A DNA stretch of 64,000 bases from Ruegeria sp. THAF57 (lineage in GTDB: Bacteria > Pseudomonadota > Alphaproteobacteria > Rhodobacterales > Rhodobacteraceae). Under the pieces are notes generated by a model. It did not search any database. It worked only from the letters and a program-made list of their open reading frames with translations, and was not told the DNA's origin. A program made the translations under genes and the position numbers. Of the stretch, positions 35,419-48,902 are shown piece after piece. The stretch is from contig NZ_CAIWNQ010000004.1 in assembly GCF_903914075.1 (NCBI RefSeq), forward strand, positions 124,001 to 188,000. Reading direction: 5' to 3'. How positions within the stretch are numbered: the first letter of the stretch is position 1; every line of letters begins with the position of its first letter.

Positions 35419-35882
35419 TCGCTGGCGCGTCGCGCTGCGAGCCAGATCATAACCAGCACAGCCGAGATAGCCGCATTCCAACCGGCCATGGATAGACCCA
35501 GAAACTCCCACGGGATGTCGTCGCAGCGTACCAATGGGGCAGACATGATCTGGTCCATCAATTCTTGTGTGGACAGACCTCCAATGTCTCCTGAAGTGCA
35601 GCTTGATGGGCCTTCCCACCATTTCTGCTCGACGCCTGCGTGGAAAACGCCGATGGCGGCGGTTGTCATCGCTGCAAGAGCGCCCAATACCGGAAGCAAC
35701 GTGTTACGGGGCAGAGCCAGCGCCAACCCACCAATCAAAACGGCCGCCCCATGCGGGTAGCGCTGCCAGATGCACATCTTGCAGGGCGGCAGGCCGCCCA
35801 AGTACTGAAACCCCCAGGCCCCAAGCAAAAGCGCAGCGGAGCCTCCGGCGGCGATCAGGACATACAGGTTTCGACGCGTCAT
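35415..35882 (-). CDS. dsbB: Disulfide bond formation protein DsbB
   Basis: Inner-membrane protein passing electrons from DsbA to quinone. The ATG at 35882 gives 155 residues; the open frame upstream belongs to overlapping sequence. Four membrane segments are visible and both redox Cys pairs are kept: Cys34 and Cys37 in PPCKMCIWQRYP, Cys95 and Cys120 in the second periplasmic loop. The start overlaps the stop of the YqaA-like gene by 4 bp, so the two are coupled. Confidence 0.9.
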   Translation of the reverse strand: MTRRNLYVLIAAGGSAALLLGAWGFQYLGGLPPCKMCIWQRYPHGAAVLIGGLALALPRNTLLPVLGALAAMTTAAIGVFHAGVEQKWWEGPSSCTSGDIGGLSTQELMDQIMSAPLVRCDDIPWEFLGLSMAGWNAAISAVLVMIWLAARRASD

Positions 35883-36457
35883 AGGTATTTCACCGCAATA
35901 AACCCGCCAAACAGCAGGATGATAAACAGCGTGAACATGAGGCCAAGGCGCTTTTCGATAAAGGCGCGAATGGGTTCTCCGAATCCCCACAGCAAGCCTG
36001 CCACAACGTAAAAGCGCAAAGCACGCGCCAGAATAGACGTCGCGATGAAGGTGCCCAAGGGCATACCGGTCCACCCGGACATGATCGTAATGACCTTGTA
36101 GGGAAATGGCGTTACGCCCGCGCCCAAAACGGCCCAGAATCCGAAATCATTGAATCGTGTGTTGAATTCTTCCATGGCGTGCGCCTTGCCCATGGATTCA
36201 AGAATGGGCTGTCCAATGCTTTCATAGAAAAACGCACCAATGGCATAACCCAGCAATCCGCCCAATACCGAAGCAACCAAGGCAACGGTCGCGATCAACC
36301 ACGCGCGAGACGGTCGGGCGATGATCATTGGAATCATCAGAACGTCGGGGGGAATCGGAAAAAATGAGCTTTCGATAAAGGCAACCACGGCCAGCGCCCA
36401 CAGCGCATGCGGATGTTCGGCCAGACGAATGGTCCAGTCATAAAGCGATCGCAACAT
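35879..36457 (-). CDS. DedA/YqaA-type (VTT domain) membrane protein
   Basis: 192 residues with about five membrane segments. The family signature is seen in AFIESSFFPIPPDVLMIPM near 27 and the re-entrant GAGVTPFPYKVITIMSG near 111, containing the acidic and Pro-rich motifs of SNARE-associated/VTT proteins. DedA relatives are linked to undecaprenyl-phosphate or phospholipid recycling across the membrane; which substrate applies here is unknown. It is coupled to dsbB. Confidence 0.85.
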   Translation of the reverse strand: MLRSLYDWTIRLAEHPHALWALAVVAFIESSFFPIPPDVLMIPMIIARPSRAWLIATVALVASVLGGLLGYAIGAFFYESIGQPILESMGKAHAMEEFNTRFNDFGFWAVLGAGVTPFPYKVITIMSGWTGMPLGTFIATSILARALRFYVVAGLLWGFGEPIRAFIEKRLGLMFTLFIILLFGGFIAVKYL

Positions 36458-36602: not shown

Positions 36603-36688
36603 GCCCAAGTGGCGGAATGGTAGACGCAGGGGATTCAAAATCCCCCGCCTTCACGGGCGTGAGAGTTCGAGTCTCTCCTTGGGCACCA
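36603..36688 (+). tRNA. tRNA-Leu (anticodon CAA)
   Basis: A class II tRNA of 86 bases. GCCCAAG pairs with CTTGGGC at 36678-36684, then discriminator A and encoded CCA. The anticodon stem GGGGA/TCCCC holds the loop TTCAAAA, giving CAA. A long variable arm (GCCTTCACGGGC) and the T arm GAGAGTTCGAGTCTCTC are present. Confidence 0.98.
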
Positions 36689-36824
36689 CAATTCCGGTTT
36701 CGACGTTTGTGTATTTGTTGCGCAATGCGACAGCCTTTTTTTGGCGCTTCGGGACAAGCGATTTCCGCCGATGCGTTTGGCTGTGTCCGTACAGTCGGCT
36801 GTCCACTTGGTGGTTTCGTGAACG

Positions 36825-37739
36825 TTACCCGCGGCGATACAGCCTCCATTCAAGATCAAATGACGGATAGCGGATTTTCGCGTCATGATGCAGCATTCGT
36901 AGGGGCCTAACAGGCATCTTGCTGCCAAGAAGGTGTTCCAGCAACGACGCGGCGTGTCCTGCGGATATGTATTTCTTTGGTTTGCCGCTATCTATCACCG
37001 AAAAAGAATGGCGCCGCATCAGTGTATCAAGCCCGGATCGCGAAAACCAATGCAGGACGCTTGGGGGCGAATACTCGTGCCAGCGCTTGCCCATCAGCCG
37101 GGCCATCCAACTGTCCAGACGCCAGTATTCGATCACGCAAATACCGCCTGGCCGCGTCAAATCCGCGACCGATTTCATGGCCTTGGGCAGGTCGTGAAAG
37201 TGGCCGATAACCTGTATCAAACTTACGGCATTGAAAGGTTCTAGACCCTTGCAGTCCTCAAGGCTTCCCTGCAGCGCGTTCAGACCTAGCGTGTCCCGAG
37301 CGTGAGAAACCATCGTCTGATTGGGGTCCAGGCCTGTCGTCGCCCAGCCTGCATCCTCCATCCCAGCTTGAAGAAAGCCTGCGGCGCTACCAACCTCAAG
37401 AAGCCGCCCATTTTTTGAATGGCGGGACAGGAGTTTTCCGTATCGTCGGCCTTGGTCTCGCAACAACTGAGCCTCGCTCAGGTAATCGGAGTACCCAGCG
37501 CCACCACCAAAAAAATAGCTGTCGTCATAAACTGACGCGACGTGGTCCTGATCAAACAAGCCTGCAACCGAACGGTTTCCGCAGGCCGGGCAGTGCATAA
37601 TCGAGTATCCGTTTTTAGCGAACGCAAATTCGGTTCTATTTTCACAGGCCGGGCAAATTGAGCTTTGGCCTGTTTTTAATTCACCTGCATGTTTCACTCG
37701 GCAAATCCCGCCGCAATTGTTCAAATAGGTCTCTAACAT
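36825..37739 (-). CDS. Class I SAM-dependent methyltransferase with N-terminal zinc ribbon
   Basis: A 304-residue protein. Two CPAC knuckles (near residues 29 and 50) form a rubredoxin-like zinc ribbon, followed by a Methyltransf_23-type domain: RLLEVGSAAGFLQAGMEDAG (SAM motif I, about 112-131), TTGLDPNQ (motif II), AVSLIQVIGHFHDLPKAM (motif IV) and RPGGICVIEYW. This architecture is common for sugar or polyketide methyltransferases in surface-glycan clusters. It runs away from the wecB operon, with about 600 bp between them, and may use the same product as substrate. Acceptor unknown. Confidence 0.8.
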   Translation of the reverse strand: MLETYLNNCGGICRVKHAGELKTGQSSICPACENRTEFAFAKNGYSIMHCPACGNRSVAGLFDQDHVASVYDDSYFFGGGAGYSDYLSEAQLLRDQGRRYGKLLSRHSKNGRLLEVGSAAGFLQAGMEDAGWATTGLDPNQTMVSHARDTLGLNALQGSLEDCKGLEPFNAVSLIQVIGHFHDLPKAMKSVADLTRPGGICVIEYWRLDSWMARLMGKRWHEYSPPSVLHWFSRSGLDTLMRRHSFSVIDSGKPKKYISAGHAASLLEHLLGSKMPVRPLRMLHHDAKIRYPSFDLEWRLYRRG

Positions 37740-38336
37740 GTCGCAAATCTTTGAGCGATCGTCAAAATTTAAGGCGTATGGATTGAATAATCGCCAACTA
37801 AATTGACATCAATTTGTACTTAATTTGGGCGCGTTGACGGCTGATTAAAAGTAAGATCTATGCGATGACTGACGGAAAAATTTAGGCGCCAATATGCTCC
37901 AAGGGAGATAATTGTTTCCTTTTTGTGGACACCTGTTCTGACGTTCAGATTCTCATTCACCTTGCGCTAAATCGTTAAAAACACTGGAGGTTAGGGGGTA
38001 TTTTCAGGCCGTTTCAAACGAATCGGTTGACAATTCCGCATCCCATAACGGACTTTGAATGTGGGGGCAGGCAATTTTAGCGAGTAAAAATCTCGCGACT
38101 ATTCATAGCAGAGCAGTACGAAAAGTATTGTGACTTGGGCGGAATTTTACGCCCGAGGTAATGATGAATAGTGGGGTGTTTGGTTTGTGTGAATTTGGTT
38201 ATTTGTGCGCTCGAATGGGCGCAGTTTTCGGCGCTGTTTAAGCGTTATGGGGAACCCTCAATCGGAAAATAGGTCTGAACAAAGGGTGTTTGGAAAAGCA
38301 CCTTTTGGCCGGCGTTCGGGCAGACAATCACGTCGT
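37740..38336. other. A/T-rich intergenic region at the head of the glycan cluster
   Basis: About 600 bp between the divergent methyltransferase and epimerase genes, visibly richer in A/T than the flanks. No gene is supported. TTGACA hexamers occur at 37803 and 38027 but neither has a good -10 at the right distance. Two inverted repeats are seen: GCGAG/CTCGC (38080-38096) and TTGGGCG/CGCCCGA (38135-38156, one G-T pair). I see no JUMPstart/ops element. The region probably holds the promoters and a long leader of the glycan operon. Confidence 0.5.
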
Positions 38337-39494
38337 GTGGCATTGAAAATCATGTTGGTTTTTGGAACCCGCCCGGAATTAATCAAGATGCTGCCGATCA
38401 TTCGCGAAGCAGGTGAGCGTGAAGACGTTGAGTTGATTACAGTGATGACGTCCCAGCACACTGATCTTGTGCGGTCTCTTGCTACGGAATGGGCAATCCC
38501 TGTCGATTACGACCTTGAGGTCATGAAGCACGCGCAGTCGTTGAATGACGTGATTTCTCGGGTTGTTGGACGGATTGATCGTGTTCTGGAGGAAGAGAAA
38601 CCGGATGTGGTTCTTGTTCAGGGCGACACCTCAAGCGCGTTTGGTAGTGCTTTGGCTGCGTGGCAACGGCAGATACCTGTTGGTCATGTCGAGGCTGGAC
38701 TGCGGACTGCGAGTATCGATTCTCCGTTCCCTGAAGAGGCGAACAGAAGGCTGATTTCCCGCATAGCCAGCTTCCATTTCGCACCAACCCTAAGCAACAA
38801 AAATGCGTTGCTGGCCGAGAAAGTACCGTCGCAGGGCGTTTTCCTGACTGGCAATACGGTGGTGGACTCGATCAGGCATGTCATGGGGCAAAGGCGTCCC
38901 TCCAAGCCGGTCGCGTCGTTGATATCAGAACTCGAGGGGCGTCGAATAATTGTATTGACGACGCATAGAAGAGAGAGCTTTGGCTCCGTTATGTGCGATC
39001 GCCTTAAGGTCTTGCGTCGCTATGTCGAAGAACGGCCGGATATCAGCCTCGTGTTCCCGGTCCACCCCAATCCGCAGGTCAAGAATGTAGCGCGTGCCGA
39101 GTTATCCGGGTCAGATCAGATTCACTTGGTTGAGCCTTTGGCCTATCCGGATTTCCTGCACGTGCTGGCGGCCTCGTGGGTTATTCTGTCAGATTCAGGA
39201 GGCATTCAGGAAGAGGCGCCAAGCCTTGGAAAGCCGCTGCTGATTTTGCGGGACGAAACCGAACGTTCGGAAGCCGTGAGTTGCGGAATCGCGCGGCTTG
39301 TCGGTCAATCGGCACAACGCCTGCAGGAAGAACTTCTGGAGCTTGATTGCCCTAAAAGTTGGGCCACAAAGGTCGGAGAAGTTGAAAATCCATTTGGCCG
39401 GGGAAACAGCGCAGCGCGGATACTGGACATCCTGCAAAGAAGGCAGACGGTGGCGCGTGCCGTTGACTTGGCTGCTGCGGGGACGGTGCAATGA
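38337..39494 (+). CDS. wecB: UDP-N-acetylglucosamine 2-epimerase (non-hydrolysing)
   Basis: Inverts C2 of UDP-GlcNAc to give UDP-ManNAc, feeding the glycan pathway of the following genes. Motifs: LVFGTRPELIKMLPII at the start, VQGDTSSAFG and GHVEAGLRT near 95-120, FPEEANRR, GNTVVDSI, TTHRRESFG near 205, VFPVHPNP near 240, and SDSGGIQEEAPSLGKPLL near 285 binding the nucleotide. Start choice is uncertain: the GTG at 38337 gives a normal 385 residues, while the frame is open from 38205 and an ATG at 38247 is possible. The stop overlaps the next start by 4 bp. Confidence 0.88.
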   Translation: MALKIMLVFGTRPELIKMLPIIREAGEREDVELITVMTSQHTDLVRSLATEWAIPVDYDLEVMKHAQSLNDVISRVVGRIDRVLEEEKPDVVLVQGDTSSAFGSALAAWQRQIPVGHVEAGLRTASIDSPFPEEANRRLISRIASFHFAPTLSNKNALLAEKVPSQGVFLTGNTVVDSIRHVMGQRRPSKPVASLISELEGRRIIVLTTHRRESFGSVMCDRLKVLRRYVEERPDISLVFPVHPNPQVKNVARAELSGSDQIHLVEPLAYPDFLHVLAASWVILSDSGGIQEEAPSLGKPLLILRDETERSEAVSCGIARLVGQSAQRLQEELLELDCPKSWATKVGEVENPFGRGNSAARILDILQRRQTVARAVDLAAAGTVQ

Positions 39495-40336
39495 CGCGTT
39501 TGTCCGATCCCACTCCGGCGGCCAATCCGCGCGTACAAGGTGGGGCGGACACCGTCCTTGATCACCAGTCCTTGACCGTGGTCGCACCGTGTTTCAACGA
39601 GGAGGAGGGGCTGCATTATTTGGCAGAGAAGCTTGCCAAATTGCAGACGAGCCTTGGTTCGCAAGTGGTTCTTTCGATCGTTCTGGTCGACGACGGAAGC
39701 ACTGACAACACGTGGGATGTCATGCACGACCTGTTCGGGCGTAGGCCGAACGTTACCTGCCTGCGTCATAAGAAAAACCTTGGGATCATGGCGGCAACGG
39801 CCACCGGGATAGCGGCCTCGACAGACGAGGCGGTCGCGGTCATCGATAGCGATTGCTCTTATGATCCGGCACTTATTTCCAAGATGCTGCCATTGCTGAA
39901 AGAGGACACGTCGATCGTGACGGCATCGCCGTACCACCCGCAGGGGCAAGTCGAAGGTGTACCGGAATGGCGTCTGTTTTTGTCCAAAGGCGCCTCTTGG
40001 GGTTATCGGCGGTTACTTCGGAACAATCTGGCTACGTACACATCGTGCTTTCGCCTGTATCGAAAAAGCTCGGTTGTTTCTTTACCCCGCCGGCATGACG
40101 GATTTTCCGGCGTGGCCGAGGTTCTTGCGTTGCTGGACCGCCGTGGGTGGCGCATTGACGAGGTTCCGGCCGTTTTGACAACACGTAAATACGGGCAGTC
40201 CAAGCTGAAGCTGATGCGGGTGGTTCGCGATCACCTGTCCTTGATGTCCAGTATCGCAGTCGGAAAGATTTTTTTTAACCGTATCCCCCCGCAGGAAGTT
40301 TCTGCGGGCCCTCAAGTTCGTGGAGAAAGAGATTAA
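39491..40336 (+). CDS. Family 2 glycosyltransferase, dolichol/polyprenyl-phosphate sugar synthase type
   Basis: Expected to move a sugar from UDP-sugar to polyprenyl phosphate on the cytoplasmic face. The 281-residue GT-A domain has VVAPCFNEEEGLHYL near 30, SIVLVDDGSTDNTWDVM near 63, KNLGIMAATATGIAAS near 95 and AVIDSDCSYDP (DxD-like) near 118, ending with RKYGQSKLKLMRVVRDHL, the lipid-phosphate-binding region of DPM1/ArnC relatives. No C-terminal membrane helices follow, so it is the short, peripheral form. Overlaps the epimerase by 4 bp and the aminotransferase by 1 bp. Confidence 0.85.
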   Translation: MTRLSDPTPAANPRVQGGADTVLDHQSLTVVAPCFNEEEGLHYLAEKLAKLQTSLGSQVVLSIVLVDDGSTDNTWDVMHDLFGRRPNVTCLRHKKNLGIMAATATGIAASTDEAVAVIDSDCSYDPALISKMLPLLKEDTSIVTASPYHPQGQVEGVPEWRLFLSKGASWGYRRLLRNNLATYTSCFRLYRKSSVVSLPRRHDGFSGVAEVLALLDRRGWRIDEVPAVLTTRKYGQSKLKLMRVVRDHLSLMSSIAVGKIFFNRIPPQEVSAGPQVRGERD

Positions 40337-41562
40337 TGACGAGTACATCTGTTCCCGAGTTCCCTTCAGACCAGGATGCAAGCGGTCGCCAGTTGGGTGA
40401 CGAAGAAATCGCGGCCCTGACGTCCGCAATTCGCTCTGGTACGCTTACGTCGACCAAAGGTCATTTCGTAAAAGAATTTCAGTCCAAATTCGCCCAATCC
40501 ATCGGGGCTGTGTTCGGGTATGCCTGCAGTTCGGGGACGGGGGCGATCCACGCCGCGGTTTCCGCAATTGACCCAAGTCCCGGCGACGAGATCATCACGT
40601 CGGCGATCACCGATATGGGTGCGATAACCCCGATCCTGTACCAGACCGCCATACCTGTTTTTGCGGATGTCGATCCGATCACGGGAAACCTGACGGCGGA
40701 AACGATTGAGCGCGCGATTAGTGAACGCACGAAAGCTATCATCGTCACGCACCTTTTCGGGTATCCCGCAGACATGCCGGCGATTTGCGCTGTCGCCCGC
40801 CAGCATGGGATTCCAGTGATTGAAGACTGCGCGCAAGCATATGGCGCAACCATTGATGGACGTCATGTCGGGACATTTGGCGACATCGGGTGCTTTAGCC
40901 TTCAGCAAGGTAAACACATCACGACCGGCGAAGGTGGAATTGTAACGTCCAACGACGAAGGTCTTGCCCGGCGCATACGGTTGTTTATCGACAAGGCGTG
41001 GGGTTACGGAGATCCAAAGCCGGATCATTATTTTGTCGCGCTGAACGGGCGGATGACCGAACTGCAAGGCGCGGTGGCGCTTGCTCAGTTCGCCAAGCTT
41101 GATGACAGCGTGCACCAGAGAAAAGCGATGGCCCAAAAGCTGACGGACGCGATATCTGGCCTGCCTATGCTGGTGGCTCCGTATTCGGATGACCAAACCG
41201 TTCACAGCTATTGGAAATATCCGCTGATCGTTCAGCCCGAAATTGGCGGCCCCGTTCGTGTTGCCGAGGCGTTGCGCGGATTTGGCATCAACTCGGCGCC
41301 ACGATACATCCAGAAGCCCGCGTTTGAGTGCGCCGTGATCCGCGATCAACAGACCTTCGGAGACAGCGGCTTTCCCTTCAATCTTGCCCGGCCCGAAGCT
41401 GTTGATTATGCGCCCGAGCGATTTGAGGGAACCTATTCTTTCCTGAACGATGTTCTCGTTCTGCCGTGGAACGAGCGTTACACCGACGAGCACGTCGATT
41501 ACTTGGCACAACAGATTGCCGCTGTGTGTTCTGACGTGCCTCGTCTGGACGTGGCGGAGTAA
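40336..41562 (+). CDS. DegT/DnrJ/EryC1/StrS (ArnB-like) sugar aminotransferase
   Basis: PLP enzyme that aminates a keto-sugar nucleotide. 408 residues; GTLTSTKGHFVKEFQSKFA, CSSGTGAIHAAV near 65, VIEDCAQAYGA near 165, and the Schiff-base Lys in FSLQQGKHITTGEGG near 195 all fit. The usual GEGGMV sequence is GEGGIV. Start and GT2 stop share one base (TAATG). The partner dehydrogenase and acyltransferase follow directly, which suggests an oxidise-aminate-acylate sequence on a nucleotide sugar. Confidence 0.9.
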   Translation: MTSTSVPEFPSDQDASGRQLGDEEIAALTSAIRSGTLTSTKGHFVKEFQSKFAQSIGAVFGYACSSGTGAIHAAVSAIDPSPGDEIITSAITDMGAITPILYQTAIPVFADVDPITGNLTAETIERAISERTKAIIVTHLFGYPADMPAICAVARQHGIPVIEDCAQAYGATIDGRHVGTFGDIGCFSLQQGKHITTGEGGIVTSNDEGLARRIRLFIDKAWGYGDPKPDHYFVALNGRMTELQGAVALAQFAKLDDSVHQRKAMAQKLTDAISGLPMLVAPYSDDQTVHSYWKYPLIVQPEIGGPVRVAEALRGFGINSAPRYIQKPAFECAVIRDQQTFGDSGFPFNLARPEAVDYAPERFEGTYSFLNDVLVLPWNERYTDEHVDYLAQQIAAVCSDVPRLDVAE

Positions 41563-41567
41563 AGCTG

Positions 41568-42593
41568 ATGGTACGATTTGGTATTGTTGGGGCTGGAGCG
41601 ATTGCAAAAGCGTATGCCGAAGCACTGGAGCAGGCCGAAGGCGTTTGCCTGACTGCCGTTGCAGATACGGTATCTGATGCCGCAAGTTCGTTGGCCGATT
41701 GCCACGGCGCTGCGACGTTTGCGTCGCATCGGGAATTGGCGTTGTCAGGGCTGTGTGACGCGGTGATCGTATCTACACCGCCCGCAACCCACGAAGCTGT
41801 TGTTTTGGATCTGATTGAGGCGGGTTTACCCGTGCTCTGCGAAAAACCTTTTGCAATTAACGGTGTAAGTGCACGCAGAATGGCGTCGGCGGCTGGTGAG
41901 AAAGGCATTCTGATCTCGATGGCGTCAAAGTTCCGCTATGTGGATGACGTCCAGATTGCGCGGGAAAAGGTGGCTGCGGGAGAGATTGGCGACCTCAAAC
42001 TGATCGAGAACGTCTTTACAGGCGTGGTGGACATGACCGACCGGTGGAACGCGCAGCCTGAAATATCTGGCGGTGGCGTCTTGGTGGATAACGGCACACA
42101 TTGTGTAGATATTGTGCGCTTCTTCACGGGCGGTATTGTCGCAGCCTCTGCCATGGTGGGCCCAAGTCTTCAGGATATCAGTGTCGAAGACCACGTCTTT
42201 ATGTCGCTCAGAACGGCAAACGGGGCACTGGCCCAGATCGAAACGTCTTGGAGTATTCACAAGGACAGTTCGGACTACTTGGCGTTGTACGGCGACGAAG
42301 GCGTCATTGAAGTCGGTTGGAAGTCCTCGCGCATACGGCGTCCTTTGACCGGACAGTGGGAAACCTTTGGCACCGGTTACGGAAAGGTGCAGGCGTTTTC
42401 AAATCAGGTCTTGGATTTCGCGGCCGGAGTTCGCGGCGAACCAACCAAAAGCCTTGCGACCGGGCGGGACATTCTGGCGTCTGTGGACGTGATTTCAGCC
42501 GGTTACACGTCGATTGCGGAAGGCGGCAGATGGGTTGATGTTGACGGCGTTGCCACCATCGACAGGGTCATGCCCAAGAGTGTGGTGTCGTGA
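41568..42593 (+). CDS. Gfo/Idh/MocA family NAD(P)-dependent sugar dehydrogenase
   Basis: 341 residues with a Rossmann start GIVGAGAIAKAYAEALE, the nicotinamide-side motif PVLCEKPFAIN near 90, and the family core GGGVLVDNGTHCVDIVRFF near 165 with the catalytic Asp and His. In WbpB- or WlbA-type pathways this enzyme makes the 3-keto sugar that the DegT aminotransferase uses; the same order is proposed here. Starts 5 bp after the DegT stop. Confidence 0.9.
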   Translation: MVRFGIVGAGAIAKAYAEALEQAEGVCLTAVADTVSDAASSLADCHGAATFASHRELALSGLCDAVIVSTPPATHEAVVLDLIEAGLPVLCEKPFAINGVSARRMASAAGEKGILISMASKFRYVDDVQIAREKVAAGEIGDLKLIENVFTGVVDMTDRWNAQPEISGGGVLVDNGTHCVDIVRFFTGGIVAASAMVGPSLQDISVEDHVFMSLRTANGALAQIETSWSIHKDSSDYLALYGDEGVIEVGWKSSRIRRPLTGQWETFGTGYGKVQAFSNQVLDFAAGVRGEPTKSLATGRDILASVDVISAGYTSIAEGGRWVDVDGVATIDRVMPKSVVS

Positions 42594-43210
42594 CAGCCAG
42601 GATTCACCCAACGGCAATCGTCGAGAAGGGCGTGGAAATCGGCGCCGGCACATCGGTATGGGACAACGTTCATCTGCGCGGTCCCAGTAAGATCGGCAGA
42701 AACTGCATTATTGGTGGCAAAAGCTATATCGCATACGGGGTTGAAATCGGCGATTTCGTTAAGATAAACTCGTTTGTCTACATTCCAAATGCCGTCAAGG
42801 TCGGGAATGGGGTGATGATCTCTGCGGGCACCATCTTTACCAATGACATCACACCGCGTGCCACTGACGCCGACATCACACAGCTTTTGGATTCCGGTCC
42901 GCAGGATAGTACGCTCCCGACCTTTGTTGGGGACGGTGTCACCATCGGAGCGGGCAGCAGGATCTCTGGCGGGATCACGATTGCTGAGTTCGCAATGGTT
43001 GGAATGGGATCGGTTGTCACCAAAGACGTGGGGGCGTTCCATCTGGTATTTGGCAACCCGGCCCGGCTGAAGGGGGCTGTGTGCAAATGCGGCCACGTTT
43101 TAATCCGTGGAAGCCTTGAGGGGCAGGGAAGGGCGACCTGTCCAAAGTGCGACCGGCAATACAGTTATCAAGACGGGGTTGTCTCATCCGAGTTGGAAAG
43201 CGCGTCATGA
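42590..43210 (+). CDS. Left-handed beta-helix acyltransferase with C-terminal zinc ribbon
   Basis: 206 residues from a GTG overlapping the previous stop by 4 bp. Hexapeptide repeats (IHPTAIVEKGVEIGAGTSVW onward) form a beta helix as in WbpD/WlbB, with VGDGVTIGAGSRISGGITI near 110 and the VTKDVGAFHLVFGNPAR ending of N-acyltransferases. A C-terminal extension (about 163-190) has CKCG and CPKC pairs, a zinc ribbon that is not part of the basic fold. It likely acylates the amino group installed by the aminotransferase. The zinc ribbon echoes that of the methyltransferase at the cluster's edge. Confidence 0.87.
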   Translation: MTARIHPTAIVEKGVEIGAGTSVWDNVHLRGPSKIGRNCIIGGKSYIAYGVEIGDFVKINSFVYIPNAVKVGNGVMISAGTIFTNDITPRATDADITQLLDSGPQDSTLPTFVGDGVTIGAGSRISGGITIAEFAMVGMGSVVTKDVGAFHLVFGNPARLKGAVCKCGHVLIRGSLEGQGRATCPKCDRQYSYQDGVVSSELESAS

Positions 43211-44553
43211 GCGGTGTGCAAGCGGATACGTGGGCTGTCCTCGGCGGAGGGATTCTGGGTCAGGCACTGGCGCTTCGTTTGCAGGAAGCCGGTAAGCGCG
43301 TGACCCTGATCGAAGCCGCGCCAGAGTTGGGCGGCCTTGCAATGGCCCAGCAGGTCGGAGGCATCACCTACGACAAGTTCTATCATGTGATCTTGCCGTT
43401 TGATAAACGAACCCTCGCTCTGCTCGACGACATAGGGTTGGGGGACGACGTTGAATGGAGGTCAACGCGCACAGGTTTTTTCAGCGACGGGCGGCTGATG
43501 CCGCTGAACGGGGCATTCGATTATCTGCGCCTCAGATCAATCGGTTTGGTAACCAAGTTGCGGGTTGCCTATCTGTTGATGGCGGCTGGACGGATCAGGG
43601 ATGGGGCTCCGCTTGAACAGATCAGCGTTCAGGAATGGTTAACCCGCTGGTGTGGGCAGGCTGGGTTTGATCGGCTCTGGCGGCCGCTACTCAGGGCAAA
43701 GTTGGGTGATAATGCATCGCGGGCATCGGCGGCGTTCATTTGGTCTAGCATACGCCGTTTGTACCTTGCGCGGCAGGGTGTTCAAAAAGTTGAACAGCTT
43801 GGTTTTGTAAAGAATGGTGGCTATGCCCGTATCCTGAACGCCCTGCGCGACACGTTGATCGCAAGAGGGATCGAGGTGCAAACCAACACCCCCGTAAGTC
43901 GGGTTTTTGGTTCCGCCGCAGGTGTTTGCGTCGAAACTCCATCCGGCAGGCAGGTATTCCAAAATGTTGTCTCGACACTTCCGACAAAAGCAAATCTGGC
44001 AGTGTGCGAGGGGCTGGATGCTGAAGAGAAAAACCGTCTGGATGGGGTGGTTTACCAAGGCATAATTTGCGCGTCCGTTGTGCTGAATCGACCACTGGCC
44101 GGTTATTATCTAACCTACCTGACAGATGAGGCGCTGCCATTCACGGGCATCGTTGAAATGTCTGCTTTGACCGGCACAGATGCGTTTGACGGCAAAACCC
44201 TGGTCTATTTACCGCGTTACGTCACGCAGGATGATCCGTATTGGGCCCTAAGCGATGAAGGGATTGCGCTGCAATTTGTTGACGCGCTGCGAAAGGTACA
44301 TCCGGACGTCGCAAGCACCGATGTTCTGGACATAAAAGTATCAAGAGTACGCGAGGTGATGGCCGTGCCAACCATTGGGTATCGTGAGAACGCCCCGCAA
44401 TCGGTGACTTCGGTGCCTGGCCTTTACTTTGTGAACTCGGCCCAGATCATCGACGGGACGTTGAACGTAGATGCGACTCTGGGCGTTTTGGACGAGGCCA
44501 TGGAGAAACTCGAACTGGGCCGCACCACAACCGAGGCGAGGCCAGCAGCATGA
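43207..44553 (+). CDS. NAD(P)/FAD-dependent oxidoreductase (amine-oxidase/UDP-galactopyranose-mutase-like)
   Basis: The ATG at 43207 overlaps the acyltransferase stop by 4 bp and gives 448 residues. An FAD-binding dinucleotide fold begins at WAVLGGGILGQALALRLQ with TLIEAAPELGGLA, as in amine oxidases, protoporphyrinogen oxidases and UDP-galactopyranose mutases. The C-terminal FAD contact reads PGLYFVNSAQIIDGTLNVD. Related proteins occur in glycan clusters next to a GT2 gene; the reaction is unknown. Candidates are oxidation or desaturation of the sugar or of the lipid carrier. Confidence 0.8.
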   Translation: MSGVQADTWAVLGGGILGQALALRLQEAGKRVTLIEAAPELGGLAMAQQVGGITYDKFYHVILPFDKRTLALLDDIGLGDDVEWRSTRTGFFSDGRLMPLNGAFDYLRLRSIGLVTKLRVAYLLMAAGRIRDGAPLEQISVQEWLTRWCGQAGFDRLWRPLLRAKLGDNASRASAAFIWSSIRRLYLARQGVQKVEQLGFVKNGGYARILNALRDTLIARGIEVQTNTPVSRVFGSAAGVCVETPSGRQVFQNVVSTLPTKANLAVCEGLDAEEKNRLDGVVYQGIICASVVLNRPLAGYYLTYLTDEALPFTGIVEMSALTGTDAFDGKTLVYLPRYVTQDDPYWALSDEGIALQFVDALRKVHPDVASTDVLDIKVSRVREVMAVPTIGYRENAPQSVTSVPGLYFVNSAQIIDGTLNVDATLGVLDEAMEKLELGRTTTEARPAA

Positions 44554-45563
44554 CAAAGAAGCTCGCAAGCCTGTCGCTCGATCTTGATAACCTGTGGTCC
44601 TACATGAAAACGCATGGCGATCCGGGATGGCAGGATTTTCCTGGATATTTGGACGTTGTCGTGCCGCGGTTTCTGGACATGCTTGACGAGCTTTCCATAA
44701 GCATGACGGTTTTCGTTGTCGGGCAGGATGCGGTGATCAAGGAAAACAAACCGATCCTAAAGTCCATCGCCGACGCAGGCCACGAAATCGCCAATCACTC
44801 ATTCAACCATGAGCCTTGGTTGCACCTATATTCCCCCGAGGAGATCAGCAAAGAAATTGAACGCGCGGAAGAGGCGATCCACTCTGCCACAGGCGTAACG
44901 CCCAAGGGGTTCCGGGGCCCGGGATACAGTTTGTCAGAAACCGTTTTGGATGTACTGAAACAACGTGGCTACGACTATGACTGTTCGACCTTTCCCACGA
45001 TCGCCGGCCCTTTGGCGCGGGCTTATTATTTTGCCAAGTCGCGCTTGTCATCAGATCAAAAGGAAAGGCGAAAAGTCCTGTTCGGCGGGATAAAGGATGG
45101 CTTTCGACCCTTAAAACCCTACGCATGGGACCTGAACCGAGAGCGGATGGTCGAAATCCCAGTTTCGACTATGCCGTTTTTCAGAATACCTTTTCATTAC
45201 AGTTATTTACACTGGATCGCAGGCGCGTCCGAAGGGCTGGCCTCGGTCTATTACGCATCCGCACTACGAGCTTGTGATATGGCCGGTGTAGCCCCTTCGA
45301 TGTTACTGCATCCGTTGGACTTCATGGGGGGGGATGACGTGCAGCAGTTGGCTTTTTTCCCCGGTATGAACCAGTCCTCTAATGAAAAGCTTGTCCGCAT
45401 GAAGCGCTTCTTGTCCAAGCTGAACGACGAGTATGACGTCACGACGATGGCCGGGCACGCGAAGACTCTGAAAATCACTGAGCTGCCTTTGCGAAGACCG
45501 GATTTTGCCACCGAAGACACGGATGCCGTCGATTTGGCCCAAGAAACGAGCGCCACCCGATGA
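44550..45563 (+). CDS. Polysaccharide deacetylase (NodB/ArnD-type)
   Basis: 337 residues; start overlaps the previous stop by 4 bp. The NodB domain covers about 1-150: the LSLDLDN segment bears the catalytic/metal Asp, HEIANHSFNHEPW the metal His pair, and FRGPGYSLSETVLDVL the third motif. The middle (YLHWIAGASEGLAS) is a family-specific insertion. No signal peptide is evident, so it acts in the cytoplasm or at its membrane, as ArnD does when it removes the formyl group from the lipid-linked sugar. Here it would remove the acyl group placed by the upstream acyltransferase; this is inference. Confidence 0.86.
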   Translation: MTKKLASLSLDLDNLWSYMKTHGDPGWQDFPGYLDVVVPRFLDMLDELSISMTVFVVGQDAVIKENKPILKSIADAGHEIANHSFNHEPWLHLYSPEEISKEIERAEEAIHSATGVTPKGFRGPGYSLSETVLDVLKQRGYDYDCSTFPTIAGPLARAYYFAKSRLSSDQKERRKVLFGGIKDGFRPLKPYAWDLNRERMVEIPVSTMPFFRIPFHYSYLHWIAGASEGLASVYYASALRACDMAGVAPSMLLHPLDFMGGDDVQQLAFFPGMNQSSNEKLVRMKRFLSKLNDEYDVTTMAGHAKTLKITELPLRRPDFATEDTDAVDLAQETSATR

Positions 45564-47152
45564 TTGCGGCACGGCAAACCCAATCCTTTCAGGCGCTGCT
45601 GAGAGTCAGCGTGTTCTGCATTCTCACTGTTTCCTACCTGGTGACTGCGCCTGAGTATCATACGACAGCAATCGACTCGTACTATTTCGCCGAGATTATC
45701 TCGCAACATGACCTTTTCGAGGCGCCGGTCCGGCTGTTGTTGTGGCTGTCTTCGATGCAGGTGCTTTACCGGATAGTTTCGGTTTTTCAGGCCGAGCCCG
45801 ACCCGTTCGTCATCCTGAGTATTGCCAACGCGATATTTGCATCGCTTTCTGTCATCTTGCTTGAAAGGTTATTGTCGCGACAGTTCGCAGTGCCTTCACC
45901 GGCGTCTTGGCTTACCGCCATTACTTTCGGGGTCAGTTACGGCACATGGCGATACGCAACCGAGCTTGAGGTTTATCCCTCAGCGATGTTGTTCACGATA
46001 GTTCTGCTTACCTTGGCCTTCTCGACGGCGGGGATGAAACCCCCTGCGCGGTCAAGACGGATCTGGATCACGGCAATCGCCGGCGCGGTTGCTTCGTTTT
46101 TCTATCAACCGTTGGGCATCGTCGCAGGCATAGCAATCCCGGTATTCTTCCTGTCCCGGCGGGTCTTGAAAGACCTTATTCAATACTGTGCAATCTACGG
46201 TCTGTTCTTGGCGGCTGGGTTCCTAAGCTTGGCACGCACGGGGGGATCCAGCGATCCGTTGCACACAATTTTAGATACGGACGGCAAAGTTGTTGTGCTG
46301 CCCGACATGGTCAGCCTTTCCGCTTCGGCGGTGGCGTTCTTTCAAAACCTGTTGTCGGCGAATTGGATGTTTGCGTTCCAACCCACACGGGATGTCATCG
46401 AAAGCAAGTTTGCGGACCATTTCATGCATGAATTGGTCGCCACTGACCCGGCCTATTGGGGGTACCGCCTATTCCTTCTTACGATTCCGGCAGCATTGGT
46501 TTTGTTGCTGCTTGCAGTCATTCGCGTTCTTAAGGCGCGTGAAAGACGCCCGCTGACCAGCCCTGAACTAAGTGCGATTTCGCTTTTGACCGTGCAGGCG
46601 CTTATGGTGCTGGGTTTGCACCCCGAAGGTTTCGAAGCGTGGTTGCCAACGCTTGTGCCTGTATTCTTACTGTTGGGAAGTCGTATTTCCGGGCCTCTGC
46701 AACGCTCTGGGCATGTGTCGGTACTTGTTTTAATTGTCGCGGTCTTTGGGGTTCATAACTGGTTTGCAGGCGTTGGAGTGTTTGCCAATGCAACGCGGGA
46801 CTACAATCGCATACTGGCCGAACCCGCCATTACCCGCCTTGGCGAGAAGGACTTGGTTATCATTGGGGCCGACTGGCCGTTGTTTAAATATCTAAATTAT
46901 GTAGGCGCCGCCGATACGATTTTCGCCAAGGACACACAGACCGACGTCATTCTTAGTCGGCTGGAGGGTACCATAGACAGTGGTCATCAGGTCATGATTT
47001 ACCCAGATGTCATTGCACCCTCTGCCTTGGCCCTAAAGCAAGCCAGAAATCTGACGGAAGTCTACTCAAAAATGCCCAAGCAAGCGATTGCCAATGGCGA
47101 GAAGATTGAGTTCGGTGACCTTGGATACGGTTTGCTTTTGAGGAAAGAGTAG
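45560..47152 (+). CDS. Multi-spanning membrane glycosyltransferase, GT-C type (ArnT-like role)
   Basis: 530 residues with about ten to twelve hydrophobic segments and a C-terminal soluble domain (about 420-530). An acidic residue in the first external loop (AIDSYYFAEI, Asp near 37) and the ATELEVYP segment near 135 fit the GT-C fold, which takes the sugar from a polyprenyl phosphate carrier at the outer face. Sequence similarity to named families is weak, so only the fold class is called. It overlaps the deacetylase gene by 4 bp and ends the operon, in the role ArnT has in the Arn pathway. Confidence 0.72.
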   Translation: MIAARQTQSFQALLRVSVFCILTVSYLVTAPEYHTTAIDSYYFAEIISQHDLFEAPVRLLLWLSSMQVLYRIVSVFQAEPDPFVILSIANAIFASLSVILLERLLSRQFAVPSPASWLTAITFGVSYGTWRYATELEVYPSAMLFTIVLLTLAFSTAGMKPPARSRRIWITAIAGAVASFFYQPLGIVAGIAIPVFFLSRRVLKDLIQYCAIYGLFLAAGFLSLARTGGSSDPLHTILDTDGKVVVLPDMVSLSASAVAFFQNLLSANWMFAFQPTRDVIESKFADHFMHELVATDPAYWGYRLFLLTIPAALVLLLLAVIRVLKARERRPLTSPELSAISLLTVQALMVLGLHPEGFEAWLPTLVPVFLLLGSRISGPLQRSGHVSVLVLIVAVFGVHNWFAGVGVFANATRDYNRILAEPAITRLGEKDLVIIGADWPLFKYLNYVGAADTIFAKDTQTDVILSRLEGTIDSGHQVMIYPDVIAPSALALKQARNLTEVYSKMPKQAIANGEKIEFGDLGYGLLLRKE

Positions 47153-47173
47153 AAATTGAAACACCCGGGCACG

Positions 47174-47527
47174 TCATCCGGTTGTCAGAAGCCCGACACC
47201 AACAATGACGAAGGCAATTCCAAGTACCGTTTTCAAACCTATAACCTCGCCAAAAAAGATCATCCCGACGCTTGATATTCCGACGATAGAGAGGCTTGTC
47301 GCAAGCGTGTACGCTGTGCGCAAAGGAAGCCCGCGCAAAGCATATAGATAGCTGAGTAAAAGCATGACACCCAACGTCAGCCCAACCCATAGCATCGGGT
47401 GCAGTGCGGCAGACAGCATGGAAGACCACGAGCGGGATATCTCGGTTTCAACTGTAAACTTCTTGAAAGCAAAGTTCGCGCCAATATTTCCGCAAATCGC
47501 AAGCAACAAGGCTAACCAGTAACTCAT
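47174..47527 (-). CDS. SMR/EamA-like four-helix membrane protein (ArnE-like)
   Basis: 117 residues and four hydrophobic helices. LPLRTAYTLATSLSIVGISSVGMIFFGE is read in pieces: the LRTAYTLATSLS block matches the helix 3 signature of small multidrug resistance and ArnE/ArnF proteins, and FGEVIGLKTVLGIAFVIVGVGLL is a typical last helix. It converges on the GT-C gene with a 21-bp gap. In the Arn pathway ArnE/ArnF flip the lipid-linked sugar across the membrane; that role is proposed here because of its neighbours. A drug/metabolite exporter is the alternative. Confidence 0.78.
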   Translation of the reverse strand: MSYWLALLLAICGNIGANFAFKKFTVETEISRSWSSMLSAALHPMLWVGLTLGVMLLLSYLYALRGLPLRTAYTLATSLSIVGISSVGMIFFGEVIGLKTVLGIAFVIVGVGLLTTG

Positions 47528-47743
47528 CCGACAAAGCTCCGAAAATAAACTAAGTCTTCAAGTGCTAGTCTGGAAGCGGTCTCAGGTCTAATGAAAAGTC
47601 GGGCGTGCGCGGCCTGCGGTGCTTGCTGCCGTTCCGCGCAGTGTCGGACCCACTGTTTCCAAATAGACTGGTTGAGGCGCACGTTGACTTGCGGCTTCGT
47701 TCCGCTCACTGTTTGGAAAAAGAGGTAAAAGGTACATCCAGCA

Positions 47744-48793
47744 GTGTTTGTTGATCTGTTTAAAGACGGAGTTATTCGGAACTTCATGGCACCTTTGTTG
47801 CCATCGACAAGCCTGTTCTATCTCTATGTAGTTTCAGCGTTTATCATCTCGGCGGCGGTGTTTTTTTTCTTCGAGAGAAGAGAGAGTGAGCACCGTCCCG
47901 ACGAGATTGAAAAAGGTCTGTTTGGGTATGTTTTTGATCGAAAGGTCTGGTTTCATCCGTCTTCAAAGCAGGATTATTATTTCTTTGTCGTAAACACTTT
48001 CATCTATTCTGGGATCATTGCCCACTTTATGATCTCGGGGCATATCGTGTTCAACGCATTCGGTAACGTCTTTGATTCAGTGCTCGGACCGCGTCAGGAG
48101 GCCCTGTTCACGTTGTCCGTATTCACGTCACTGGCATATACTCTGGTGGCGGTCCTTGCGATTGATTTTGCCATTTTCCTAACCCACTACGTGCAGCATA
48201 AGTTTGCACCGTTGTGGCATTTCCATTCTGTTCATCACTCTGCCGAGGTGCTGAACATCGTAACTGTCTATCGTCAGCACCCGGTCGACCTGTTCATTAC
48301 CGGTACGTTCATGGTGGTTCTGACCGAGGTCGCTTTTGCGTTCTACGCCTATCTGACGATGTCCGAACCCGCGCAGCTTACAATCGGAGGGCTGAATGTT
48401 GTGCTATTTGGGTTTTACCTACTGGGGTACAATCTAAGGCACTCGCATATCTGGCTCAGTTATCCGCGCTGGCTGTCTTACATCTTCATCAGTCCGGCGC
48501 AGCACCAAACCCACCACTCGATCGACGAAAAGCATTTTGACAAGAATTTTGGTTTTATCTTTGCGATTTGGGATTGGTTGTTTGGCACGCTGTACGTTCC
48601 CAAAGGATACGAAAAGCTGGAATTTGGCATTTCACGCGCCGAACCCAACCCGTTTGGGTCGGTAGTCGAGCTTTATTTGAAACCTTTTCAACTGGCGTGG
48701 AAGGAAATCACGGGGTCAAAGCTGTTCAGTCGCTTTGCTATGGGGTTCGGCGTCGCGGCTGTTTTGTGCGTGGTTTTCAGCGTCGCCTTCTGA
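47744..48793 (+). CDS. Sterol desaturase/fatty acid hydroxylase superfamily membrane enzyme
   Basis: 349 residues with about six membrane segments and the eight-His di-iron signature: HYVQH, HFHSVHHSAE near 165 and HQTHHSIDEKH near 250. The GTG at 47744 is the first possible start; an ATG at 47786 (MAPLLPSTSLFYLY) is an alternative and neither has a strong ribosome site. The substrate is a lipid; hydroxylation of an acyl chain, sterol-like or carotenoid lipid cannot be separated. Independent of the glycan operon by strand, although adjacent. Confidence 0.87.
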   Translation: MFVDLFKDGVIRNFMAPLLPSTSLFYLYVVSAFIISAAVFFFFERRESEHRPDEIEKGLFGYVFDRKVWFHPSSKQDYYFFVVNTFIYSGIIAHFMISGHIVFNAFGNVFDSVLGPRQEALFTLSVFTSLAYTLVAVLAIDFAIFLTHYVQHKFAPLWHFHSVHHSAEVLNIVTVYRQHPVDLFITGTFMVVLTEVAFAFYAYLTMSEPAQLTIGGLNVVLFGFYLLGYNLRHSHIWLSYPRWLSYIFISPAQHQTHHSIDEKHFDKNFGFIFAIWDWLFGTLYVPKGYEKLEFGISRAEPNPFGSVVELYLKPFQLAWKEITGSKLFSRFAMGFGVAAVLCVVFSVAF

Positions 48794-48809
48794 GTTGTGC
48801 AATCGGGGA

Positions 48810-48902
48810 TCACGGATCCGGATGCTGGCTGAGCCAAATCAGAAAACCAACATAGGCGAACACACTTAGGTTCAGCACTGTATCAATCAGTCCACCAGTC
48901 AT
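48810..48902 (-). CDS. 30-residue membrane peptide coupled to the BCCT transporter
   Basis: ATG at 48902 overlaps the BCCT stop as ATGA, with a strong GGAGGA site 7 bases upstream inside the transporter gene. The peptide starts MTGGLIDTVLNL and has one hydrophobic helix (TVLNLSVFAYVGFLIWL), ending SQHPDP. Codon usage and the strong start make this a real gene. It resembles in plan the small subunits coupled to some other secondary transporters (e.g. MetS beside the NSS protein MetP), but I do not recognise the family. Function as a subunit or regulator is inference. Confidence 0.68.
   Translation of the reverse strand: MTGGLIDTVLNLSVFAYVGFLIWLSQHPDP

Follow-up and report, generated by a model that had tools for sequence, protein, structure and literature searches.

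A conserved gene set for putative lipid-linked amino-sugar decoration, inserted at a tRNA-Leu gene in Ruegeria sp. THAF57

Organization of the locus

We analyzed a 64,000-nucleotide stretch of DNA from Ruegeria sp. THAF57 (hereafter, the window) and describe here a run of sugar-processing genes at positions 36825-47527. Open reading frames (ORFs) are present across this interval, as a preliminary description of the DNA had reported, and the gene families that it assigned are largely borne out, the gene read as ArnT being the weakest case. It left unnamed the sixth gene of the operon, which encodes a flavin adenine dinucleotide (FAD) oxidoreductase, as well as the tRNA-Leu insertion site and a fatty-acid-hydroxylase gene carried by the same insert (Table 1).

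The operon occupies 38337-47152 of the plus strand and comprises eight genes. Six of its seven junctions overlap by 1-4 bp and the DegT-Gfo/Idh junction is a gap of 5 bp; translation of all eight as a single unit is therefore probable. The SMR gene runs convergent to the operon, and the preliminary description was right about this direction. The methyltransferase gene is divergent, and its product, whose N-terminal Cys pattern looks like a zinc ribbon, is likely an accessory. The ten proteins of 36825-47527 were scanned against Pfam and NCBIfam and, together with the hydroxylase, make up the 11 insert proteins referred to below.

Table 1. Coordinates of the insert, its genes and the tRNA gene at its edge
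Feature	Coordinates	Strand	Evidence or comment
tRNA-Leu (CAA)	36603..36688	+	Island insertion site; ARAGORN; same tRNA in seven relatives
12.1-kb insert	36690..48823		Absent from five relatives; DNA homology break points
S-adenosylmethionine (SAM) methyltransferase	36825..37739	-	PF13489, 72 bits; N-terminal Cys pattern
WecB, UDP-GlcNAc 2-epimerase type	38337..39494	+	TIGR00236, 394 bits (cut-off 210)
GT2, probable polyprenyl-phosphate sugar synthase	39491..40336	+	Profile best matches 5mlz, ArnC and sll0501
DegT-family sugar aminotransferase (C3 proposed)	40336..41562	+	PF01041, 282 bits
Gfo/Idh dehydrogenase (C3 oxidation proposed)	41568..42593	+	PF01408/PF22725
Left-handed beta-helix (LbH) N-acetyltransferase	42590..43210	+	Hexapeptide repeats PF00132; best PDB match 3mqg
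FAD oxidoreductase	43207..44553	+	NF005560, 385 bits (cut-off 252); used as system marker
NodB/CE4 N-deacetylase, motifs intact	44550..45563	+	PF01522, 87 bits
Membrane glycosyltransferase, GT-C-like, TMEM260/DUF2723 relative	45560..47152	+	PF11028, 22.7 bits (cut-off 24.2)
SMR-family protein, candidate flippase	47174..47527	-	PF00893, 29 bits (cut-off 23.7)
Fatty-acid hydroxylase-family protein, within insert	47744..48793	+	PF04116, 81 bits

Conservation of the gene set

A search of genome_contigs with a profile built from 28 FAD proteins matched 419 stretches, 346 relatives among them, and the best 80 were kept as loci. They come mostly from metagenome-assembled genomes (MAGs) and, by record title, from at least 10 phylum-level groups; the core set occurs in records titled cyanobacteria, planctomycetes, acidobacteria, myxobacteria, gemmatimonads, actinobacteria and proteobacteria. 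Some loci end near a contig edge, and the 5 kb upstream of the FAD gene are present in 67 of the 80.

In a loose tblastn search (E 1e-5), NodB was matched in 76 of the 80 loci, GT2 in 67, LbH in 63, Gfo in 61, DegT in 56, WecB in 30, the methyltransferase in 18, the SMR protein in 3 and a membrane transferase of the window's type in 1. Under strict bit scores the counts were 72 for NodB, 56 for LbH, 55 for Gfo, 51 for DegT, 37 for GT2 and 21 for WecB, and the methyltransferase reached at least 100 bits in 15. Thus, when we ran the check on joint conservation that the preliminary description had proposed, DegT, Gfo, LbH, FAD and NodB held together, GT2, WecB and the methyltransferase did so in part, and the SMR protein and the window's membrane transferase did so rarely. 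The order DegT, Gfo, LbH, FAD is kept in 49 of the 51 loci with a strict DegT, so that the clustering exceeds chance. NodB starts within 300 bp of the FAD gene's end in 54 of the 72 loci with a strict NodB, and all six of DegT, Gfo, LbH, FAD, NodB and GT2 are strict at 25 of the 80. One FAD protein (P0107) is fused to an LbH domain. At a Rhodobacteraceae locus, L008, the membrane transferase, SMR and methyltransferase genes adjoin the core and WecB is absent. The active-site alignments described below are smaller than the strict counts because the ORF caller and length filters removed the remainder.

We consider the set to be real and conserved, a variant of the systems that decorate with lipid-linked sugars. 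It is not described in the papers that we searched, a search that left out most subscription journals.

The sugar-building module

The window's WecB retains M18, Q95 and a TER motif at 308-310, and scores 314 bits to a UDP-GlcNAc epimerase versus 139 to the diacetamido type. These residues mark it as a UDP-GlcNAc-type epimerase, which fits the earlier statement that UDP-GlcNAc is epimerised, and it is the only match of its kind in its own genome. In the Thermus thermophilus epimerase for a 2,3-diacetamido uronic acid, Trp307 stands for the Arg that contacts the C3 hydroxyl (PMC10622841; this and the other articles below are cited from excerpts). The window's enzyme has Arg310 where a 2-epimerase specific for a 3-acetamido sugar would carry Trp307. 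Among 21 aligned epimerases from the loci, five (L012, L016, L041, L051 and L085) carry TEW, and that of L012 scores 351 bits to the T. thermophilus enzyme with TEW aligned and Trp307 present. At L012, L016 and L051, a TEW epimerase and a distant LbH-DegT-Gfo set precede the same FAD-NodB pair. Two different C3-amination sets thus meet one FAD-NodB pair, and the arrangement independently points to a 2,3-diacetamido type of sugar at these three loci. The L012 gene itself (L012:8905-9993), a Trp307-type diacetamido 2-epimerase from an Acidimicrobiia MAG, lies directly 5' of the FAD gene.

The LbH protein matches 3mqg with 106 bits (over residues 3-198 of 206), followed by 4mzu (72 bits; WxcM-like), 7s43 (59 bits; an N-acetyltransferase of unstated role) and 3fs8 (53 bits; QdtC). 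We take 3mqg, 4mzu and 3fs8 to be C3-amine acetyltransferases and 3mqg to be WlbB, and by this best match, a sequence criterion, the LbH protein falls into the WlbB/WbpD type. Four Cys residues at its C-terminus (C165, C167, C184 and C187) are present in 31 of 31 aligned proteins and form a probable zinc ribbon. The best PDB match of Gfo is 3q2k (87 bits), presumably WlbA. Its E92-K93-P94 is found in 38 of 38 aligned proteins and K193 of DegT in 35 of 35. Both families fit C3 enzymes, yet their sequences do not single out C3.

WlbB/WbpD is an acetyltransferase, and C3 amination requires a 3-dehydrogenase (PMC10622841). With the LbH protein's nearest relative a C3-amine acetyltransferase and DegT undiscriminating, the ArnB-like C4 chemistry implied by the preliminary description is not supported. 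The chemistry looks like the C3 amination of the Wbp/Wlb pathway, which would yield a 2,3-diacetamido hexose.

Probable lipid loading and the GT2 fusions

We built the GT2 profile from 24 proteins, 17 of them fused or long. Its seven best PDB matches are dolichol-phosphate-mannose synthase 5mlz (121 bits), ArnC entries (77-83) and sll0501 (75); next come a chondroitin synthase (68 bits) and, owing to the fused domain, CE4 deacetylases. Proximity to dolichol-phosphate-mannose synthase, ArnC and sll0501 makes it likely that GT2 loads the sugar onto polyprenyl phosphate, as had been suggested earlier. In the window's GT2 (281 residues), mean hydropathy does not exceed 1.46 over any stretch of 19 residues, so that no clear membrane segment shows by that measure.

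In 25 long proteins another domain precedes GT2: Polysacc_deac_1 with DUF3473 in 24, and WecG in one. We aligned the fused CE4-like domains (L011:5420-7099 and 23 similar) with solved CE4 enzymes and with each other. The first His of the metal pair is lost in 24 of 24, replaced by Lys, Arg, Tyr, Gln, Asn, Glu, Cys or a gap. The fused domain is therefore probably inactive, a non-catalytic relic or a binding domain, and NodB is probably the working deacetylase; on this ground we rejected the reading of two active deacetylases. At L032:5245-6918 a WecG/TagA glycosyltransferase is fused to GT2 in place of the CE4-like domain.

Deacetylase and FAD enzyme

Across 50 aligned NodB proteins, D11 and D13 are conserved in 49, and H83, H87, R122 and H254 in all 50; we take D13, H83, H87, R122 and H254 to be the CE4 metal and catalytic residues. 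Nine loci (L014, L018, L022, L028, L041, L046, L063, L068 and L074) combine strict GT2, FAD and NodB with no strict DegT, Gfo or LbH. By the loose search, eight of them lack any DegT, Gfo or LbH, and L041 retains a weak LbH match. At these loci NodB would have no LbH-added group to remove, which makes the C2 acetyl its likelier target, and we consider removal of the original C2 N-acetyl the more likely reading. The protect-deprotect scheme of the preliminary description, in which NodB removes the newly added group, becomes the less likely one and is unsupported. A similar case for C2 acetyl removal has been made for VimE of Porphyromonas gingivalis (PMC7468200).

No close DegT or LbH was found anywhere in the nine genomes. 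Distant DegT-like (34-40%) and LbH-like (35-39%) genes occur in five each, side by side in G558 and G560, and only the genomes of L022 and L028 (two of the nine; genome completeness not given) have neither. Distant genes of one or the other kind in seven of nine genomes weaken the C2 argument to a pointer, and we dropped C2 as NodB's only possible target.

The FAD enzyme belongs to the amine-oxidase family PF01593, and its profile weakly matches protoporphyrinogen oxidases (53 bits) and a phytoene desaturase (47 bits). Its gene, which has no place in the reaction scheme of the preliminary description, stays with NodB and GT2 even at loci without the C3 module. The UDP-diamino sugar is therefore a less likely substrate for it than a lipid-linked sugar or the prenyl carrier. 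DprE1/E2 epimerise polyprenyl-phosphate ribose (PMC11127046), an example that redox chemistry on polyprenyl-phosphate sugars exists.

Membrane transferase and candidate flippase

The window's membrane transferase has about eight hydrophobic segments by a simple hydropathy count, no NCBIfam match, and a single Pfam match, to the TMEM260-like family, below its cut-off. We listed 104 membrane ORFs, three of them in the window region, and scanned 54 of the other 101 along with the window's transferase; these 55 were chosen by size and position. Asp D39 is common to 51 of the 55 aligned, and the scan matched PMT_2 in 35, PMT in 5, GT87 in 4, Wzy_C in 2 and Bac_transf in 1 (counts may overlap). Transferases of the PMT and GT87 types are thus common beside the module elsewhere, which supports the earlier view that links an N-acetylhexosamine (HexNAc)-building module with lipid loading and a membrane transferase.

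At L008, a 52% relative of the SMR protein adjoins the membrane transferase. A tblastn hint of an SMR protein fused to a GT-C enzyme at L028 was rejected: the ORF is a Bac_transf sugar transferase, presumably WbaP-like. Among 10 small ORFs scanned (6 of 14 small membrane ORFs and four others), small EamA (L040, L044 and L071) or GtrA (L061) proteins were found.

An island at a tRNA-Leu gene

Together with the fatty-acid-hydroxylase gene, the set forms an insert of 12.1 kb at the tRNA-Leu 3' end. It is flanked by genes at 35879-36457 and 48899-50392, by our reading DedA-like and BCCT-like, respectively. We compared 10 relatives that carry the BCCT-like flank gene at 69% identity or more. The distance between the flank genes is 358-577 bp in five of them (G011, G018, G019, G020 and G024), 8.2 kb in G012 and 17.7 kb in G023; in G008, G021 and G022 the two genes are on separate contigs. 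Homology of the DNA to L112 and L113 breaks off at 36689, directly past the tRNA-Leu 3' end, and restarts at 48824; the three other empty relatives give shorter matches, to 36647 and from 48840 or 48926. All seven relatives fetched retain the tRNA-Leu. The cargo of G012 at this site (L117) looks like an ABC transporter set. Five empty relatives and two with other cargo between the same flanks identify the tRNA-Leu 3' end as an insertion hotspot. Down to 64000 on the plus strand, and down to 50500 in inverted orientation, no exact repeat of the tRNA exceeds 11 bp, and no integrase family occurs among the 11 insert proteins.

Across 148 genomes, the window's own included, the FAD gene has one strong outside match (G091, 45% identity); five matches within the genus reach only 26-29%. 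In a phylum sample in which few candidates per genome were scored, 1 of 398 genomes, the window's own, matched it at E 1e-80. The membrane transferase has a 96% relative in an unclassified Ruegeria. Two scans of viral_contigs returned no viral copies of the system.

Comparison with known systems

In the Arn pathway, which adds 4-amino-4-deoxy-L-arabinose (Ara4N) to lipid A, a GT2 enzyme loads undecaprenyl phosphate, de-N-acylation takes place on the lipid, and SMR-type flipping and GT-C transfer follow. By our proposal, the cluster would share this logic of loading, deacylation, flipping and transfer. It differs by an extra epimerase, a Gfo/Idh dehydrogenase, an acetyltransferase and the FAD enzyme, and its sugar is probably a C3-aminated hexose. 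The family models fall far below their cut-offs (ArnB NF008658, 165 bits versus 631; ArnC NF007986, 48.7 versus 529; ArnD NF011923, 21.5 versus 382; ArnF, 30.2 versus 99; ArnE, 23.9 versus 92), and the ArnE and ArnF scores place the SMR protein in the SMR superfamily only. Among the matches of the ten proteins there is no ArnA dehydrogenase/formyltransferase and no ArnT model, the membrane transferase matching the TMEM260-like family alone. On these cut-offs, we rejected the membership in the Arn pathway that had been assigned before.

Reportedly, the Francisella FlmF2-NaxD-FlmK galactosamine pathway loads HexNAc on undecaprenyl phosphate, deacetylates it and adds it to lipid A. The cluster has proposed C3 amination and an FAD enzyme, which that pathway lacks, and the Francisella deacetylase presumably belongs to a family other than that of NodB.

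With the Wbp/Wlb pathway to UDP-ManNAc3NAcA, the cluster has in common a putative C3 dehydrogenase, a putative C3 aminotransferase, a WlbB/WbpD-type acetyltransferase and a 2-epimerase (PMC10622841). It differs by its epimerase, TER rather than the TEW of the diacetamido type, and the C6 dehydrogenase of that pathway is absent from the 11 insert proteins; three PF03721 genes over the cut-off, two of them clear and one marginal, lie at other sites in the genome. The P. gingivalis Wbp/Vim linking-sugar pathway involves a 2,3-diacetamido sugar, as proposed here, and a putative CE4 deacetylase has been suggested to take off its C2 acetyl (PMC7468200). It differs in making a uronic acid or uronamide, in the amino acid added by VimA, and in serving A-LPS and the type IX system, and the excerpt of that article names no FAD enzyme. 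Three-component extracytoplasmic glycosylation systems (GtrA/GtrB/Gtr; ribofuranose) use a polyprenyl-phosphate sugar synthase, a flippase and a GT-C enzyme, roles for which the cluster has candidates, and their lipid-linked sugar can be altered, as by DprE1/E2 (PMC11127046). The cluster differs from them by its amino-sugar module, its deacetylase and a PF01593 FAD enzyme.

A proposed mechanism and its alternatives

We propose that the cluster is a horizontally acquired system for extracytoplasmic sugar decoration, in which a diamino sugar is loaded on a lipid, loses one acetyl group and is added to the envelope. As a whole, this proposal appears to us plausible, if slightly short of probable. 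WecB would epimerise UDP-GlcNAc to UDP-ManNAc, or supply a side pool. Gfo/Idh would oxidise C3, DegT would install an amine there and LbH would N-acetylate that amine, giving a UDP-2,3-diacetamido-2,3-dideoxy-hexose. GT2 would transfer the diacetamido sugar to polyprenyl phosphate, and NodB would strip one N-acetyl, more likely the original one at C2, so that the lipid-linked sugar carries a free amine. The FAD enzyme may act on this lipid-linked sugar, or on its prenyl carrier, by a redox or isomerisation reaction. The SMR protein, another carrier or both would flip the lipid-linked sugar, the GT-C-like protein would pass it to an envelope acceptor, and the methyltransferase may trim it. The preliminary interpretation survives in part: the module, the lipid loading and the membrane transferase remain, the Arn label is not borne out, and the C4 chemistry and the protect-deprotect scheme are unsupported.

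Several observations, including the distant DegT-like and LbH-like genes described above, weigh against this proposal. Gene order, enzyme families, conserved active-site residues, the wide conservation of DegT, Gfo, LbH, FAD and NodB and the insertion at tRNA-Leu are seen directly; every substrate is inferred, as are the assignments to C3 and C2, what the FAD enzyme does, the flipping step and the acceptor. DegT scores 176 bits to perosamine synthases, 141 to ArnB (C4) and 133 to WbpE (C3), and Gfo also resembles an inositol dehydrogenase (112 bits, below cut-off). WecB is strict in a minority of loci, and so is GT2, with 27 ORFs matching it weakly, from which we conclude that the GT2 partner differs between loci. 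The membrane transferase is only weakly similar to known transferases. Of the three loci with an SMR match one, L028, is doubtful, since the match overlaps the sugar transferase ORF; this Bac_transf protein lies between FAD and NodB. Several loci lie among genes of the exopolysaccharide (EPS) type: among 48 upstream ORFs scanned, four matched Bac_transf and three WecG.

Alternatively, the module could supply and edit a sugar for a polysaccharide, secreted or capsular, that is built through Wzx/Wzy or by a synthase, with GT2 adding the sugar to a growing glycan on undecaprenyl pyrophosphate and NodB deacetylating that glycan, an explanation that we regard as unlikely. In its favor are glycosyltransferases of groups 1 and 2, Bac_transf, WecG and Wzy_C in the vicinity of some loci, as well as the GT2 with an N-terminal deacetylase-like domain and DUF3473 in 24 loci, a combination that occurs in XrtA/PEP-CTERM EPS loci. 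However, no Wzx, Wzy or initiating phosphoglycosyltransferase was found among the 11 insert proteins, the GT2 is nearest to polyprenyl-phosphate synthases, PMT_2 (35) outnumbers Wzy_C (2) and Bac_transf (1) in the 55 membrane ORFs picked by size and position, and the window's genome has no exosortase. An EPS locus of Rubrivivax, in which a PEP-CTERM-type deacetylase comes directly behind the gene of a 2-epimerase (PMC3684757), speaks for the polysaccharide reading; from their excerpts, PMC13390465 and PMC3684757 describe other EPS loci, not this cluster.

Two other acceptors deserve consideration. The TMEM260/DUF2723-like transferase might place the amino sugar on secreted or membrane proteins, which is improbable in our judgment: the membrane enzyme's sole Pfam match is indeed to the protein O-mannosyltransferase TMEM260-like family, and many partner enzymes elsewhere match PMT_2 or PMT, but the TMEM260-like match is below cut-off and PMT_2 is not confined to protein acceptors, covering lipid A and glycan transferases as well. 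The product might also be a cationic glycolipid like GlcN-phosphatidylglycerol, in which GT2 would glycosylate a membrane lipid directly, NodB would deacetylate it and the SMR protein would flip it. The fatty-acid-hydroxylase gene in the same insert and the precedent of Pseudomonas aeruginosa GpgSDF, which combines a glycosyltransferase with a deacetylase and a flippase predicted as such (PMC12713373), lend it some appeal, yet the families differ (GpgS is GT4, GpgD COG3233 and GpgF AglD2/YbhN; PMC12713373). This route would leave the GT-C-like enzyme without a task, and we hold it to be quite improbable.

Beyond our proposal of lipid-linked diamino-sugar decoration, a more speculative and somewhat unlikely extension is that the loci represent a widespread, unnamed system. 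In it, a flavoenzyme of the amine-oxidase/phytoene-desaturase superfamily and a deacetylase would act on polyprenyl-phosphate HexNAc or diamino-hexose, giving an undescribed cationic envelope sugar in many phyla, including Acidimicrobiia, which to our knowledge have no lipopolysaccharide. The lipid-level redox step would then be like that of DprE1, carried out by an unrelated flavoenzyme. If our main proposal holds, one compact set would join two known chemistries, HexNAc C3-amination and polyprenyl-phosphate sugar decoration, with a flavoenzyme, and, given the spread of its core over phyla, could account for cationic or diamino envelope sugars far from the well-studied pathogens. The conserved FAD-NodB pair provides a handle for finding the product by mass spectrometry.

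Neighboring genes

Upstream neighbors of the loci (48 of 53 scanned) are mainly glycosyltransferases, with Bac_transf in 4, WecG in 3 and Wzy_C in 3. Downstream (91 of 145 scanned, the rest mostly membrane ORFs), methyltransferase domains occur in 22 and a sulfotransferase domain in 7. Of 16 genomes chosen by hand, the window's and those that hold 15 of the 80 loci, 13 have an exosortase match (PF09721); we make no claim of a link, as this count stands without a background rate. For L059 and L075, which lie on long chromosomes, the nearest exosortase is about 2.5 Mb and about 150 kb, respectively, from the module, assuming that G156:C1 and G161:C1 are those chromosomes. In the window, the fatty-acid-hydroxylase-family gene shares the insert with the sugar genes.

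Three cyanobacterial loci (L050:15809-16848, L077:11816-12868 and L080:15721-16853) carry small proteins that are followed by similar proteins. Those of L050 and L077 give weak acyl-carrier-protein matches (E 0.005-0.006), and the protein that follows in L050 is dehydrogenase-like by our reading. Perhaps these sets provide a special acyl group for the freed amine.

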